From Mucilaginibacter tundrae (GTDB lineage Bacteria; Bacteroidota; Bacteroidia; Sphingobacteriales; Sphingobacteriaceae), in NCBI RefSeq assembly GCF_013408825.1, contig NZ_JACCBZ010000005.1, forward strand, positions 186,001 through 250,000: 64,000 bases of DNA. The letters are read 5' to 3'. Shown piece by piece: positions 21,648-28,136 of this stretch. A program made the position numbers and the translations under genes. Below the pieces are notes generated by a model. The model ran no database searches and was not told the origin of the DNA. It was given only the letters and a program-made list of their open reading frames with translations. The stretch's first letter is position 1, and each line of letters opens with the position of its first letter.

Positions 21648-21818
21648 TTGGAATTGATAATTCCTGGTCAGCAGATTGTTGCAAAATCAATAAATTTTAG
21701 TTGATAAACAAGTCTGTAAATTCATTTTATATGCAAAGGGGCTTTTATAATTCCGAAATTGAAATTTCGACATCCGAAATAATAATTATTCAAAATCATT
21801 ATTACATTTGCCCCATAA

Positions 21819-21963
21819 TTCTCAAGGGGTGCCTTGCTTTGAGCAATCAAACTGAAAGACAGGCTGAGATCAAACCCATTGTTGTAGTTATAAGTCGTGA
21901 TTAGATCATCGACCCATAACATCAACATGCACCTGATCCGGGTAATGCCGGCGTAGGGAGAGG
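21819..21963 (+). promoter_or_regulatory. TPP riboswitch (THI element)
   Basis: The conserved cores of the thiamine pyrophosphate aptamer are present in order: AAGGGGTGCC (21824-21833), GGCTGAGAT (21862-21870), ACCTGATCCGGGTAATGCC (21931-21949) and GGCGTAGGGA (21950-21959). Outer arms TCTC and GAGA can close P1. The P3 arm between 21871 and 21930 is unusually long. The element ends ~69 nt before the TonB-receptor start, with CTGCA/TGCAG hairpin arms (21979-22003) that could form the expression platform. It should repress the downstream gene when TPP is plentiful. Confidence 0.95.
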
Positions 21964-22031
21964 TAATAGTTAAGTGTACTGCATATTCAACCCTGGTGTG
22001 CAGATGGTTTAACAAGTTTTATTTATTTACG

Positions 22032-24449
22032 TTGAAAAAAAATTTACTCGTGGCGTTTTTCGCCCTGCTGCTGCCTGTCCTGGCATCGGCCCAATTCTCT
22101 GTATCCGGTAAAGTTACCGACCAGCAAACCGGCGAGCCGTTATCTGGCGCCACCATCCGCATTCAAAATGCCAATATCAGCACCAGTTCAGGTACAGATG
22201 GGCACTACACTTTCACCAATTTAAAAGCCGATAATTACAGCATCAAGATCACTTACATCGGTTATGAGGCCACTATCAAAACTATTCATTTAAAAAGCAA
22301 TTCTACGGTTGATTTTTCACTTAATCTGGCCAGCATAGTGAACGATGAAGTTACCGTAAATGCAACCCGGGCTGCTATTAACGCGCCTATTGCTTTTACT
22401 AACCTGAGCGGTAAGGATATCCAAAAGAATAACCTCGGACAAGATCTGCCTTATTTGCTGGATCAAACGCCATCGGTTGTCACCACGTCTGACGGTGGTA
22501 CGGGGATCGGTTATACTTATATCCACATTCGTGGGTCTGATGCTACACGTATAAACGTTACCATTAATGGCATCCCCTATAATGACTCGGAAGAGGAGGG
22601 TGTTTACTTTGTGGATATACCGGACATCGCTTCATCTGTTAATGATATACAAATCCAGCGTGGCGTGGGCACGTCAACCAATGGCGCGGGTGCTTTTGGA
22701 GCCAGTATCAACATACAAACCACCACCCGTCGCGATACCGGATACCTGGAACTGAACAACTCAGCAGGCTCTTATGGGGCTTTAAAAAATACCCTGAACA
22801 TAGGTACAGGCCTTTTAGGCGGCAAGTTTACTTTTGATGGTAGGTTATCGAGCATTACCTCAAACGGGTATATAGACAGGGCTTCGGCTAATTTAAAATC
22901 TTACTTTTTTAATGGTGCTTACTACGGCAAAAATACCATCATCAGGCTGGTAACTTTTGGTGGTACCGAGCATACTTACCAGGCATGGGATGGCGTGCCC
23001 GAGGATAGTATTAAAGCAGGTAACCGTACCTATAATGAGTTAGGTTTAGAATCAAACGGGACATTCTATCCTAACCAAACTGATAATTATACGCAGATAC
23101 ACTACCAGTTATTGGTAGATCAAAAAATATCGGACAAAATATCATTCAGTGGGGCTTTGCATTATACACATGGCTACGGTTATTACGAGGAATATGTTAA
23201 TAACGATTCCGTTAAAAATTATGGGTTAACGCCAAAACCGAATGATTCCACCAGCAATTTAACCCGCCGTTTATGGTTAAACAATAAGTTTTATGGTGTT
23301 ACTTATAATTTCAAATATCAGCCTAACCACAACCTGAATTTTAATTTGGGCGGCGCTTATAATGAATATCGTGGCGAGCATTATGACGATATTGAATGGT
23401 CACAACAAAATTTGGGGATCGGGCCGAACTATCAATACGAAAGCGATAACGCCTTTAAAACCGATTTTAATATTTATGGTAAAGCAGATTATAAATTAGG
23501 CAAATTTACTTTGTATGCTGATATGCAGTATCGCCATATTTACTACTCGTTTTTAGGTTTCAATGATGCCTTGCAAAACGAGCAGGAGCAGGTGAAGTTG
23601 AACTTTTTTAACCCGAAGGCGGGTGTCACTTACCAAATCGACCCGAAAAGTAATGTGTACTTATCCTTCGGTATAGGTAACCACGAGCCTGACCGTGATG
23701 ATTATGTGCAATCAACACCTGACAGTCGCCCAAAACCTGAAAATCTTAAAGATTGGGAACTGGGTTACCGTACTACCCAAGGAATATTTACCGGCGGCAT
23801 TAACGCATTTTATATGCTGTACTACAACCAATTGGTAGTAACCGGCGCATTGAATGATGTAGGCGACCAAATACAAAGCAACGTGAAAAATAGCTTTAGA
23901 GAGGGACTGGAGTTTGACGGCAGGATAAGGCCGAACAAATGGTTTATATGGTCGGCAACTGCTTCGTGGAGTGCGAACAAGGTTAAAAACTTTAACCAAT
24001 ATTTGTTCGATTACGACAATAACACAACGGTTGATTATCAATATAAAGAAACAGATATCGCTTTCTCGCCAGATTGGGTAGCTTCCAGCGAAATTGGCTT
24101 TATGCCATTTAAAGGCAGCGAAATAGCTTTGATCAGTAAATATGTAAGCAGGCAATATCTGGATAATACTTCCAATATTAACCCGCCGGGCTATGCTCCA
24201 TCTGATCCTACGTCAAACCGTTACCTGAATAGCTATTTTGTAAATGGTTTAAGGTTGAATTATGACTTTAGCATAAAATCAGTTAAAGACATCGGCATCA
24301 GCTTATTGATAAACAATATTTTTAGCGAGAAGTATGAATCAAACGGAGCAACTTACCCGGATATAGAAAGCGGCAAAGTGGTGAACTATAATTATTTATT
24401 TCCGCAGGCACCGATTAACTTTTTGGTTGGATTGAGTTTGAAGTTTTAA
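22032..24449 (+). CDS. TonB-dependent outer-membrane receptor, probable thiamine transporter
   Basis: An 805-residue receptor, predicted to import thiamine or its phosphates across the outer membrane using TonB energy. The start is TTG at 22032, which gives a clean signal peptide (KKNLLVAFFALLLPVLASAQ); the frame runs further upstream but without one. A CarboxypepD_reg-like domain (residues ~22-105) precedes the plug (~110-220, with LPYLLDQTPSVVTTSDGG and IHIRGSDATRINVTINGIPYND). The barrel ends in the family-typical aromatic SLKF. The substrate is inferred from the TPP riboswitch directly upstream; TPP-controlled TonB receptors are known in Bacteroidota. No SusD partner is adjacent. Confidence 0.92.
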   Translation: MKKNLLVAFFALLLPVLASAQFSVSGKVTDQQTGEPLSGATIRIQNANISTSSGTDGHYTFTNLKADNYSIKITYIGYEATIKTIHLKSNSTVDFSLNLASIVNDEVTVNATRAAINAPIAFTNLSGKDIQKNNLGQDLPYLLDQTPSVVTTSDGGTGIGYTYIHIRGSDATRINVTINGIPYNDSEEEGVYFVDIPDIASSVNDIQIQRGVGTSTNGAGAFGASINIQTTTRRDTGYLELNNSAGSYGALKNTLNIGTGLLGGKFTFDGRLSSITSNGYIDRASANLKSYFFNGAYYGKNTIIRLVTFGGTEHTYQAWDGVPEDSIKAGNRTYNELGLESNGTFYPNQTDNYTQIHYQLLVDQKISDKISFSGALHYTHGYGYYEEYVNNDSVKNYGLTPKPNDSTSNLTRRLWLNNKFYGVTYNFKYQPNHNLNFNLGGAYNEYRGEHYDDIEWSQQNLGIGPNYQYESDNAFKTDFNIYGKADYKLGKFTLYADMQYRHIYYSFLGFNDALQNEQEQVKLNFFNPKAGVTYQIDPKSNVYLSFGIGNHEPDRDDYVQSTPDSRPKPENLKDWELGYRTTQGIFTGGINAFYMLYYNQLVVTGALNDVGDQIQSNVKNSFREGLEFDGRIRPNKWFIWSATASWSANKVKNFNQYLFDYDNNTTVDYQYKETDIAFSPDWVASSEIGFMPFKGSEIALISKYVSRQYLDNTSNINPPGYAPSDPTSNRYLNSYFVNGLRLNYDFSIKSVKDIGISLLINNIFSEKYESNGATYPDIESGKVVNYNYLFPQAPINFLVGLSLKF

Positions 24450-24486
24450 GGTAGTGCGAGGAGCGTAGGGCAAGGTGCGTTGGTGG

Positions 24487-24535
24487 GAGTGTGTTTATAC
24501 GCTGAACACACCCCCGCCCCCTCAAGAGGGGAACC
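24487..24535. repeat. pair of short inverted repeats after the receptor gene
   Basis: GTGTGTT (about 24490-24496) pairs with AACACAC (about 24506-24512), and CCCCTCAAGAGGGG forms a second hairpin (24518-24531). The second resembles the C/G-rich dispersed hairpins also seen near 26,340, 32,140 and 44,012. They may limit read-through from the receptor gene into the phosphatase gene. Confidence 0.45.
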
Positions 24536-24635
24536 CAAATGGTCGCTATTTGAACTTTAATTTAAACTTTCCCTAACATAAACATCACACAAAATTTTTA
24601 TTACATTACTGATATTTGCACATTAATCCCAAACA

Positions 24636-26333
24636 ATGAAAACTAAACATCTGCTTTTTGTAGCGTTTGCATTTATTGCTGTTAATGTATCAGCACAAAC
24701 AAAAAAGAAAAAAACTGTAGTAGTGGCACCAACTCCGGTAGCATCAACCCAAATCCCTCGCCCTAAATTGGTAGTAGGTATTGTGGTTGATCAAATGCGT
24801 TGGGATTACCTGTATCGGTTTTACGAACGCTACCAAAGCAATGGTTTTAAACGTTTATTGAACGAGGGCTTTAGCTGCGAAAATACACAGGTAAATTACA
24901 TCCCAACCTTTACCGGCCCAGGGCATACTTGTATCTATACCGGATCGGTACCATCTATACACGGCATCGCCGGTAATGATTACATTATCCAGGCTACCGG
25001 AAAATCAATGTACTGCACCGAGGATAATAGTGTGCAAACCGTTGGCAGCACTTCGATTGCAGGGCAGATGTCGCCGCGTAATTTATTGGTGACTACGGTT
25101 ACTGATGAGCTTAAGCTGGCAACAAATTTCAGGTCGAAAGTTATCGGTATAGCCCTGAAAGATAGAGGCGGAATTTTACCTGCGGGACATACCGCGAATG
25201 CCGCTTATTGGTTTGACGATAAAAGTGGAAACTGGATAACCAGCACCTATTATATGAAGGAATTGCCGCAATGGGCAAAAGACTTTAATGACCAAAAGCT
25301 ACCTGAAACCTACTTAAAGTTAGACTGGACTTCGCTATACCCGGTAGAAACCTACCTGCAAAGTACCCCAGACGACAGTAAATATGAAGGAAAGTTTAAA
25401 GGAACCGACGCGCCGACTTTGCCGGTTAAAACATCAGCCTTATATAAGCAATCAGGTTTAGGCCTGATCCGTTCTACACCTTACGGCAACACTTTAACTA
25501 TTGATATGGCCGTTGCTGCTATAAACGGTGAACAATTAGGCCAGGGTGATCAAACCGACTTTTTAGCGATGAGTTTATCATCACCGGATTATATCGGTCA
25601 CCAGTTTGGTATTAATGCGGTAGAGATTGAGGATACTTACTTACGTTTGGACCGCGATATCGCTAACTTCCTTAATTTCTTAGATGCTAAAGTGGGTAAA
25701 GGCAATTATACTGTTTTCTTGACAGCGGATCATGGTGCGGCGCATAACACCGCGTTTTTGAATGATCACGATATTCCGGCTGGGGTATGGGATGAGGCAT
25801 CGGTTTTGAAAGATATGAACAAGATGCTGATGGATAAATACAAAACGGATTCATTGGTATTGAGCCTGAACAATTACCAGGTAAATTTTAATTATCGCAT
25901 TGTAAATTACCTGCATATTGATCAGGACGAACTTAAAAAAGAGTGCATTAAATACCTACAAAAGCAACCGGAAATTGAATATGCGGTAGATATGGCTAAA
26001 GTAGCATCGTCTAGTATTCCTGAGCCGCTGCGCGAACGCATCATCAACGGGTATAACGCTAAAAATAGTGGTGCTATACAAATTATATTAGATCCGGCAT
26101 GGTTCACAGGTCATGGTTCAGGCGATGGTGGCCCGACGGGCACCACGCACGGTACATGGAATCCTTATGATAACCATATTCCGCTGGTATTTATGGGGTG
26201 GGGTATACAACACGGTAGTGCTGTACGCGAAGTACACATGACGGACATTGCGCCAACCATAGCTGCTTTATTACACATACAAGCACCAAACGGCTGTATT
26301 GGCGTGCCGATACCTGAAGTGTTGAAGAAGTAG
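24636..26333 (+). CDS. PafA-type alkaline phosphatase
   Basis: A 565-residue exported phosphatase of the alkaline phosphatase superfamily, PafA-like branch. Residues 1-20 form a signal peptide. Metal ligand Asp52 is in GIVVDQMRWDY, the nucleophile is Thr93 in PTFTGPGHT, and the KDRGGILPAGH segment matches the PafA lysine/arginine pair that binds phosphate monoesters. DHGAAHN and HGTWNPYDNHIPL supply further metal ligands. PafA enzymes hydrolyse diverse phosphate monoesters without phosphate repression. Its position behind a TPP-regulated receptor suggests dephosphorylation of thiamine phosphates, which is inference; it could equally be a general phosphate scavenger. Confidence 0.92.
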   Translation: MKTKHLLFVAFAFIAVNVSAQTKKKKTVVVAPTPVASTQIPRPKLVVGIVVDQMRWDYLYRFYERYQSNGFKRLLNEGFSCENTQVNYIPTFTGPGHTCIYTGSVPSIHGIAGNDYIIQATGKSMYCTEDNSVQTVGSTSIAGQMSPRNLLVTTVTDELKLATNFRSKVIGIALKDRGGILPAGHTANAAYWFDDKSGNWITSTYYMKELPQWAKDFNDQKLPETYLKLDWTSLYPVETYLQSTPDDSKYEGKFKGTDAPTLPVKTSALYKQSGLGLIRSTPYGNTLTIDMAVAAINGEQLGQGDQTDFLAMSLSSPDYIGHQFGINAVEIEDTYLRLDRDIANFLNFLDAKVGKGNYTVFLTADHGAAHNTAFLNDHDIPAGVWDEASVLKDMNKMLMDKYKTDSLVLSLNNYQVNFNYRIVNYLHIDQDELKKECIKYLQKQPEIEYAVDMAKVASSSIPEPLRERIINGYNAKNSGAIQIILDPAWFTGHGSGDGGPTGTTHGTWNPYDNHIPLVFMGWGIQHGSAVREVHMTDIAPTIAALLHIQAPNGCIGVPIPEVLKK

Positions 26334-26336
26334 GCC

Positions 26337-26421
26337 CCACCCAAACTCCCCGGTAGGGAGGGCTTTGAAATTTATAACTATTAAAATAAAAGTCTCCCCT
26401 ACAGGGGGAGATTTAGAGAGG
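26337..26421. repeat. two inverted copies of a C/G-rich dispersed element
   Basis: CCCACCCAAACTCCCC...GGGAGGGCTTTGAAA (from 26338) is followed, in opposite orientation, by AGTCTCCCC...GGGGGAGATTTAGAGAGGGC (to 26421). Each half forms its own hairpin, and together they form a larger palindrome. They fill the gap between the phosphatase and the ThiE-like gene and reach to within 4 nt of its ATG. The type resembles intergenic repeats of Mucilaginibacter and Pedobacter (from memory). Confidence 0.55.
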
Positions 26422-26425
26422 GCTT

Positions 26426-27052
26426 ATGAAAAAATACATATCAAAATTCCACTATCTAACACAAGACTTGCCTAACCGTAGTCATGTTGAGCAGGCAGAA
26501 ATAGCTTGCTCTGCGGGCGCTAACTGGCTGCAATACCGTTGCTTAACCAAAACGGATGAAGATCTGATAGAAGAAATAAACCAAATAGCCGAGATCTGCG
26601 ATGAATGGGGAATGACGCTAATCATCACTAATCATTATCATTTGCTAGATCAGGTTGATGCACAGGGTGTTCATATAGAAGACTTTGAGGCGGATTTGAA
26701 GTCTATCCGCGAGTATATTGGAGAGGATAAGACTTTGGGAACTTCGGCCACCAATATTAAAGACCTGTTAAGGGTACAAGCCACCGGGGTTATTGATTAT
26801 TGCGGCTATGGTCCATTTGCGCATACGGATACTAAGCCGAATAACAAACCGTTGCTCGGTTTTGAAGGTTATCGCCTGGTGGCAGAGCAGTCTGTTGAGA
26901 TCCCTGTAATAGCTGTAGGAGGCATACAATTGGTTGACGTTGATCCGCTTTTGCAAACGGGTGGCGTATATGGTATAGCGGTATCAGCAGCGGTAAATAA
27001 AGCTATTGATCCCGGCAGGGCGGTTAAAGAGTTTTATAAGAAGTTGTATTAG
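26426..27052 (+). CDS. ThiE/TenI-family protein, divergent
   Basis: A 208-residue TIM-barrel protein of the thiamine phosphate synthase/TenI family. Family segments are WLQYR, LIITNHYHL, GVHIEDFEADL, LGTSATN, YCGYGPFAHTDTKPN, IPVIAVGGI and GGVYGIAVSAA. Compared with canonical ThiE, the lysine of the QxRxK motif is replaced and the ND pair reads NH, so a metal/phosphate ligand is missing. It may be a TenI-like paralogue rather than a true synthase. It follows the phosphatase on the same strand after 92 nt of repeat DNA. The family is firm; catalytic capability is uncertain. Confidence 0.82.
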   Translation: MKKYISKFHYLTQDLPNRSHVEQAEIACSAGANWLQYRCLTKTDEDLIEEINQIAEICDEWGMTLIITNHYHLLDQVDAQGVHIEDFEADLKSIREYIGEDKTLGTSATNIKDLLRVQATGVIDYCGYGPFAHTDTKPNNKPLLGFEGYRLVAEQSVEIPVIAVGGIQLVDVDPLLQTGGVYGIAVSAAVNKAIDPGRAVKEFYKKLY

Positions 27053-27143: not shown

Positions 27144-28136
27144 ATGAGAGTTGCAATAAACGGTTTCGGGCGGATAGGAAGAATATTTTTAAGGAATGTA
27201 CTAAGCAAACCTGATATTGAAGTTGTTGCCATAAACGATTTGACCGATACCCACACCCTTGCTCATTTATTTAAGTACGATTCTGTTCACCGTGGTTTTA
27301 AGGGCACGGTAACTGCTGATGATGAGCACCTTTATATCAACGATCAAAAAATAAAAGTACTGTCAGAGCGTGAGCCATCAAACCTTCCCTGGAAGGAAAT
27401 GGACATTGATCTGGTTATAGAATCAACCGGGAAATTCATCACCCGCCAAGGTGCTGAACAGCATTTATCAGCAGGAGCTAAACAGGTAATCATATCAGCG
27501 CCATCAGGTACTAAGGATGTTCCTACAGTAGTTTTAGGGGTGAATGATGGTGAGGTTGATCTGCAATCGCCTATACTCTCAAATGCTTCCTGTACCACCA
27601 ATAACGTAGCTGTAATGGTGAAAATATTGGATGAAAACTGGGGTATAATTGATGGTTACATCACTACTGTGCATTCAATGACAGGCGACCAAAGTCTGCA
27701 TGATGCACCGCATAAGGATTTGCGCAGGGCGAGGGCGGCATCAGCCTCTATCATTCCAACAACAACGGGAGCGGCAAAGGCTATAACGGCTATATTCCCG
27801 CATTTAAACGGCAAATTAGGCGGTGCGGGTATACGGGTTCCCGTGTTAAATGGCTCATTAACAGATTTTACCTGTAGCCTTAAAAAGCTGCCAACAGTTG
27901 AGGAGATCAACACCGCATTCAAGCAAGCGGCCGGTGGTCGTATGGAGCATATCTTAGAATATACCGAAGATCCTATTGTATCTACTGATATATTGGGCAA
28001 CCCGCATAGCTGCATATTTGATGCACAGCTAACCTCGGTAGTTGGCGGCCTGGTAAAAGTGGTTGGCTGGTATGATAACGAAATGGGCTACTCAAGTCGT
28101 TTGGTTGATCTGGTTCAAAGAATCAGCGAATTGTAA
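27144..28136 (+). CDS. gapA: glyceraldehyde-3-phosphate dehydrogenase, type I
   Basis: A 330-residue glycolytic enzyme converting glyceraldehyde-3-phosphate and phosphate to 1,3-bisphosphoglycerate with NAD. The Rossmann motif INGFGRIGR is at the N-terminus. Catalytic Cys150 is in SNASCTTNN, the phosphate-binding HSMTGDQ and RARAASASIIPTTTGAAKA follow, and YDNEMGYSSR closes the protein. The length is typical. pgk, the next enzyme of the pathway, lies 563 nt downstream with a GNAT gene between. Confidence 0.96.
   Translation: MRVAINGFGRIGRIFLRNVLSKPDIEVVAINDLTDTHTLAHLFKYDSVHRGFKGTVTADDEHLYINDQKIKVLSEREPSNLPWKEMDIDLVIESTGKFITRQGAEQHLSAGAKQVIISAPSGTKDVPTVVLGVNDGEVDLQSPILSNASCTTNNVAVMVKILDENWGIIDGYITTVHSMTGDQSLHDAPHKDLRRARAASASIIPTTTGAAKAITAIFPHLNGKLGGAGIRVPVLNGSLTDFTCSLKKLPTVEEINTAFKQAAGGRMEHILEYTEDPIVSTDILGNPHSCIFDAQLTSVVGGLVKVVGWYDNEMGYSSRLVDLVQRISEL

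Follow-up and report, generated by a model that had tools for sequence, protein, structure and literature searches.

Do a thiamine pyrophosphate (TPP) aptamer, a TonB-dependent receptor, an exported phosphatase, and a ThiE/TenI-like protein that are encoded one after another form a single thiamine-scavenging route? We asked this of a locus of Mucilaginibacter tundrae (RefSeq assembly GCF_013408825.1) that lies in a window of 64,000 nucleotides (nt), the whole stretch of DNA analyzed (contig NZ_JACCBZ010000005.1, positions 186,001 to 250,000 of the forward strand); coordinates below count from its first letter. An earlier note on this DNA had proposed that the receptor imports thiamine phosphates, the phosphatase strips phosphate in the periplasm, and a TenI-like protein acts inside the cell. 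The four elements that it named are indeed all on the plus strand, as are the promoter element, leader stem-loop, and pafA upstream block described below, and matches to RF00059, Pfam, and NF042991 bear out their identities. We think it reasonably probable that the locus serves thiamine scavenging in a Mucilaginibacter that is itself probably auxotrophic for thiamine, and that the phosphatase, PafA, and the ThiE/TenI-fold protein, here named ThiX, form a second unit.

Thiamine pathway genes in the host genome

The assembly that holds the window (4.83 Mb in 24 contigs) is 99.96% complete, and the closest named relatives of ThiX are from Mucilaginibacter (94% to Mucilaginibacter sp. L196). Profile searches of this genome at an E value of 1e-3 gave no match to ThiC, ThiD, or ThiG, and the ThiX query matched just ThiX itself, with no other ThiE. 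Based on these absences, the host is probably a thiamine auxotroph. Across the genus, ThiC scored over its cutoff in 15 of 61 genomes and gave a partial match in one more. With a TPP-preceded receptor and without ThiC, ThiD, ThiG, or another ThiE, thiamine scavenging is well founded; this part of the earlier proposal stands, but the chain from receptor through phosphatase to a TenI-like protein is not supported as proposed, for reasons given below.

The aptamer, its leader, and the receptor

The aptamer (21819..21963) carries a long, variable P3 insert. A whole-window Rfam scan at the gathering level found nothing; RF00059 matched 21914-21976 with 37.7 bits (E value, 1.1e-5; gathering score, 54.3), a subthreshold match that omits the 5' half of the aptamer. 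The missing parts are present, the P1/P2 strands lying at 21819-21833 and CTGAGA starting at 21864, with the 3' core at 21930-21963, and the score is low because the long P3 insert splits the two halves. The TPP core motifs CUGAGA and CCUGAUC...GCGUAGGGA are intact, and the minimum-energy fold has P1 to P5, with a modest energy z score of -1.36 that 23 of 200 shuffles equaled. On these sequence features, we class the element as a TPP aptamer whose P3 is enlarged. Its genome has no other RF00059 match at an E value of 1e-3. Weak-scoring TPP elements of the same kind occur in 58 of 60 genomes of the genus, and the two without one (G018 and G040) are 61% and 70% complete. The P3 arm (21872-21929 and the equivalent place in relatives) is an insert of hypervariable sequence that contains inverted, repeat-like segments, and the aptamers of some relatives have an extra P2 hairpin.

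Just 5' of the aptamer, at 21803..21810, is TAnnTTTG (TACATTTG), which we take to be a Bacteroidetes -7 type promoter element. In a search of the 45 nt preceding the aptamer's GGGGTGCC in the 40 genus loci that hold that stretch, the element was found 12 to 18 nt 5' of the aptamer's GGGG in 39. The gap between aptamer and receptor start contains a conserved stem-loop (21969..22013), which we aligned in 38 rows from 41 loci, leaving out one at a contig end (G005), one in which the pattern was misplaced (G042), and one with a divergent leader (G007). In this alignment, 94.3% of cells are paired and most are invariant. Two pairs show compensatory change, and covariation is weak relative to shuffles because the stem hardly varies. 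The stem-loop is probably the expression platform. The receptor gene (22032..24449) encodes TonB barrel, plug, and CarboxypepD_reg domains by Pfam. Its longest open reading frame (ORF) spans 21996-24449; the TTG at 22032 is the probable start, because TTGAA[AG] stands at this place in 38/38 aligned rows. We predict that the receptor carries thiamine, given the aptamer and the PnuT neighbors of its relatives.

Conservation of the gene order

The fuller arrangement in the genus, seen in 41 loci around the TPP element, is TPP-receptor-PnuT-flavin monooxygenase-PafA-ThiX-TPK-like, where TPK is thiamine pyrophosphokinase. A PnuT-like gene is present in 31 of these loci and the monooxygenase in 29, and the window belongs to the minority without both. 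ThiX occurs in 44 of 61 genus genomes, and PafA lies directly 5' of it in 38 of the 43 that have both. A TPP element lies within 9 kb upstream of PafA in 42/58 genus genomes and within 9 kb upstream of ThiX in 31/44; in eight genomes TPP-PafA is present but ThiX is not. Of 80 named loci, some of them from the same assemblies as our genus genomes, PafA is immediately upstream of ThiX in 56 of the 74 that extend far enough, TPP and receptor are upstream of ThiX in 49/62, these plus an adjacent PafA occur in 45/62, and a TPK-like gene comes next in 46/79. A sample of 20 loci from other Sphingobacteriaceae genera, 19 of them with ThiX (L239 yielded none), had PafA in 12/19, TPP and receptor in 13/18, all three in 9/18, and a TPK-like gene next in 14/19; since the 80 and the 20 loci were found or chosen via ThiX, these counts do not give the frequency of receptors without ThiX. 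Daejeonella and other loci have the receptor directly 5' of ThiX, with no PafA. Family-wide, the ThiX query matched in 163/201 genomes, a number that includes canonical ThiE. The order that the earlier note had remarked on is thus conserved, and its genes are linked, not scattered, in most of the relatives examined.

The monooxygenase (e.g., L089 of G030) is a class-D-like, HsaA/HpaH-like protein of 360 to 390 amino acids (aa) that scores below cutoffs; its gene follows the TPP element and is flanked by those for PnuT and PafA. At L088 (G029:C80), a strong TPP element leads PnuT and the monooxygenase, and these precede the receptor, which is itself preceded by another, weak TPP element. Genome G002, without ThiC, carries at L248:6390-8803 genes for a methyltransferase, a ThiL/AIRS-like protein, and a TMP-TENI protein behind a second, strong TPP element; L249 (G024) and L250 (G035) have a similar ORF layout, the Pfam identification coming from G002 alone. 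ThiX is rare in the nine genus genomes that lack ThiC and carry a second strong TPP element (2/9 versus 42/52; Fisher P = 0.001, not corrected for kinship).

PafA and its own upstream block

The phosphatase gene (24636..26333) encodes a protein with a signal-peptide-like N terminus that matches NF042991 with 795.1 bits over positions 1-554 of 554, exceeding the equivalog cutoff of 650. Its closest solved structure is 5tj3, to which it aligns along the whole chain, and this alignment shows conservation of the nucleophilic Thr, of Asn and Lys-Asp-Arg, and of the residues that bind metal in that structure. Upstream of pafA, at 24574..24618, is a block (TAACATAAACATCACA ... GATATTTG) that is conserved genus-wide as TAACAnAAATATCACAT...GATATTTG and contains a -7-like element. 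Its pattern [GCT]ATATTT[GA] occurs within 60 nt of the pafA start in 45 of 46 copies (30/31 at TPP loci, 7/7 further copies beside ThiX or TPP, and 8/8 away from the TPP locus), compared with 0/139 starts of other locus genes and 178/12300 random 60-mers, although the pattern was picked after the sequences had been inspected and the genomes are related. The block is probably a promoter with an operator. Since PafA has its own conserved upstream block, simple riboswitch control of pafA is unlikely, and the likely transcription units are TPP-receptor(-PnuT-monooxygenase) and PafA-ThiX(-TPK-like). Scans for sigma-70 promoters and terminators gave no excess over shuffles. A Pho box, which the block resembles, was considered, but open-access titles and abstract starts gave nothing pertinent on a Bacteroidetes Pho box. 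The gaps 5' of pafA (24490-24550) and of thiX (26340-26420) hold short, GC-rich, inverted-repeat-like segments.

We regard it as an even question whether PafA is a mere neighbor of the thiamine genes, a general phosphorus- and carbon-scavenging phosphatase with its own promoter and no dedicated role in thiamine use. The same kind of block stands at all eight copies away from the TPP locus, PafA is unlinked to TPP in 16 of the 58 genus genomes with both, and several other genera have no PafA between receptor and ThiX. In Flavobacterium johnsoniae, PafA is described as constitutive (PMC8812569), and a table in PMC8115612 places it in an orphan context. However, a PafA directly 5' of ThiX in 38/43 genus genomes and 12/19 loci of other genera is steadier than expected of a chance neighbor. 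With its own block whether linked or unlinked, and with the F. johnsoniae enzyme constitutive and orphan, the position of PafA does not show that it serves thiamine. The claim that a periplasmic phosphatase serves thiamine here, which the earlier note had drawn from position, is therefore not supported as stated; with ThiL present, thiamine monophosphate (TMP) could also be used directly.

ThiL and a TPK-like protein without kinase motifs

The host genome has ThiL (311 bits), and with it TMP would be usable without dephosphorylation. It has no TIGR01378 TPK at an E value of 1e-3, TIGR01378 being the sole kinase profile tried for thiamine phosphorylation. ThiL was found in 36 of 37 genus genomes, most of them without ThiC, and in all 23 genomes searched from other families, with or without ThiC. 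TIGR01378 matched none of the 37 genus genomes in a search that did find the TPKs of four other families. Among the 15 other-family genomes without ThiC, 12 had no TIGR01378 match and all 15 matched ThiL.

A TPK-like protein of about 189 aa is present in 56/61 genus genomes (the five misses are 58 to 87% complete) and adjoins ThiX in many loci. It is homologous, at 34 to 43% identity, to GDxDS-bearing TPKs of other families (G070, G076, and G098), and its predicted structure best matches TPK 2omk. GDxDS is missing from 70/70 locus copies and from the other-family copy G074; 23 of the 70 rows were aligned. The host's own copy lies away from the locus (G000:C7:253645-254211; L253:5646-6212) and lacks both GDxDS and a GRxxDH-type motif. 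We rejected the 189-aa neighbor of ThiX as a working TPK for want of GDxDS, although its fold is that of TPK. With its kinase motifs gone, the TPK homologue does not readily account for the phosphorylation of free thiamine: either another enzyme would do it, or TMP is the form imported, or the altered TPK-like protein still works.

The second of these options leads to a route in which TMP (or TPP) arrives through the receptor and is used without change, with ThiL phosphorylating TMP and a periplasmic phosphatase unneeded. ThiL in nearly all genus genomes and the lack of TIGR01378 and GDxDS speak for this route. No inner-membrane TMP carrier has been identified for it, however, PnuT is described as a thiamine transporter in PMC5613172, and ThiL is not specific to the locus, being present in other families regardless of ThiC. 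We consider the route possible but doubtful. Still less probable, to the point of being speculative, is the idea that the Sphingobacteriaceae gave up one-step pyrophosphorylation of thiamine when their TPK homologue lost its kinase center, that ThiX, the TPK-like protein, or both convert thiamine to TMP, and that ThiL finishes the task; if true, ThiX would be an enzyme that has the fold of ThiE and a novel activity.

ThiX, a ThiE-fold protein with an altered pyrophosphate site

ThiX (26426..27052) matches Pfam TMP-TENI and falls short of the curated cutoff in all 13 NCBIfam models listed for it, including the ThiE models TIGR00693 (127.9 versus 145.1) and NF000736 (142.5 versus 227). The gene 3' of thiX, at 27144, looks like one for glyceraldehyde-3-phosphate dehydrogenase. 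By score, ThiX is not TenI (44 bits against TenI model NF005819; cutoff, 251), and the genome has no ThiG match, hence no ThiG product for a TenI to act on. A structural model of ThiX (predicted local distance difference test score, 95.9) best matches ThiE 2tps, with a template modeling score of 0.88, followed by TenI 1yad at 0.76.

We compared 39 aligned rows of 95 ThiX sequences with nine canonical ThiE proteins, seven from the genus and two from other families. The Mg-pyrophosphate site is presumably K61, N92, D93, and D112 in Bacillus subtilis ThiE numbering. The lysine of QLRxK is replaced by L, M, or F in 38/39 ThiX rows, and the asparagine of the ND motif by T or A in 38/39 and by C in one. 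Of the two acidic positions, the one after this asparagine holds D in 10/39 rows, and the second holds D or E in 20/39. The residues R, S, and GG are retained in 39/39 rows and TxT in 38/39. The exception row, L240, clusters in the tree among canonical ThiE, and the nine ThiE proteins form one group there (support, 100/99). A pairwise alignment had suggested a D-to-H change at the ND site; we discarded this reading, since multiple alignments show the Asn as T or A and the Asp position as variable.

ThiX does not carry the residue set of the ThiE Mg-pyrophosphate site and is therefore probably no TMP synthase; the lack of a ThiD match also leaves the genome with no known supply of hydroxymethylpyrimidine pyrophosphate, and TMP production by ThiX is unlikely. 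That ThiX is a working TMP synthase salvaging imported pyrimidine and thiazole precursors is highly improbable, despite its ThiE fold, its TxTK phosphate motif, and a ThiL for the following step, given the missing ThiD, the altered site, the scores below ThiE cutoffs, and its persistence alongside the thi operon in 13 of 15 ThiC-bearing genus genomes. ThiX is probably a phosphate-binding triosephosphate isomerase (TIM) barrel with thiazole phosphate or TMP as its predicted ligand.

A proposed working of the locus

We infer the substrates, the regulation, and every catalytic role in salvage as follows. When TPP is scarce, the aptamer would be empty and the receptor made, perhaps via the stem-loop before the TTG start. 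The TonB-driven receptor would bring thiamine, thiamine phosphates, or both into the periplasm. PafA and ThiX would be expressed as a second unit from the promoter upstream of PafA, and PafA, as a general phosphomonoesterase, may dephosphorylate TMP, and perhaps TPP, among its other tasks. In the cytoplasm, ThiL would convert TMP to TPP, and ThiX, not acting as a TMP synthase, would probably bind thiazole phosphate or TMP.

Several points weigh against this scheme, among them the after-the-fact choice of the pafA pattern. Strict TAnnTTTG occurs at just 1/31 pafA starts, and read-through from the receptor into pafA may occur. PnuT is missing from the locus, and the one PF04973 protein of the genome is encoded on another contig. 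The auxotrophy is drawn from profile searches, the two acidic Mg-site positions of ThiX are just partly lost, and expression and binding are deduced from sequence. In Bacteroides thetaiotaomicron, thiamine had little effect on OMthi and pnuT transcripts, according to PMC5613172, a result that calls for caution about riboswitch control here.

Comparison with known systems

Open-access titles and abstract starts on PafA and thiamine, TPP and PnuT, Mucilaginibacter riboswitches, ThiE/TenI paralogues, ThiL and TPK, and Sphingobacteriaceae thiamine gave no description of this locus. Its main interest is an unexplained thiamine activation, together with a widely retained ThiE paralogue whose pyrophosphate site is altered. 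The enzymes found leave the route from scavenged thiamine to TPP in the Sphingobacteriaceae unexplained, with ThiX, the TPK-like protein, and the flavin monooxygenase as candidates. The locus also illustrates that gene order alone can mislead, since the PafA gene in it brings its own upstream block.

ThiX shares its TIM-barrel fold and phosphate-binding motifs with ThiE and TenI, but it scores below the curated cutoffs of both, its pyrophosphate site is partly altered, and its genome has no ThiG or ThiD match. PafA is like its family in its full-length NF042991 match above the cutoff and whole-chain alignment with 5tj3, but it adjoins thiamine genes, unlike the F. johnsoniae enzyme, to which PMC8115612 assigns an orphan context. 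The nearest system is OMthi-pnuT-tnr3 of gut Bacteroidetes (PMC5613172), which has in common the TPP aptamer before a TonB-dependent receptor and, in many relatives of our host, PnuT-like and TPK-like genes in the locus. It differs in that the window locus has no PnuT and no intact TPK, the TPK homologue being without kinase motifs, and in that PafA and ThiX are added; the word "phosphatase" is absent from the main text of PMC5613172. On its sequence, we class the locus as a variant of the OMthi-pnuT-tnr3 uptake locus.

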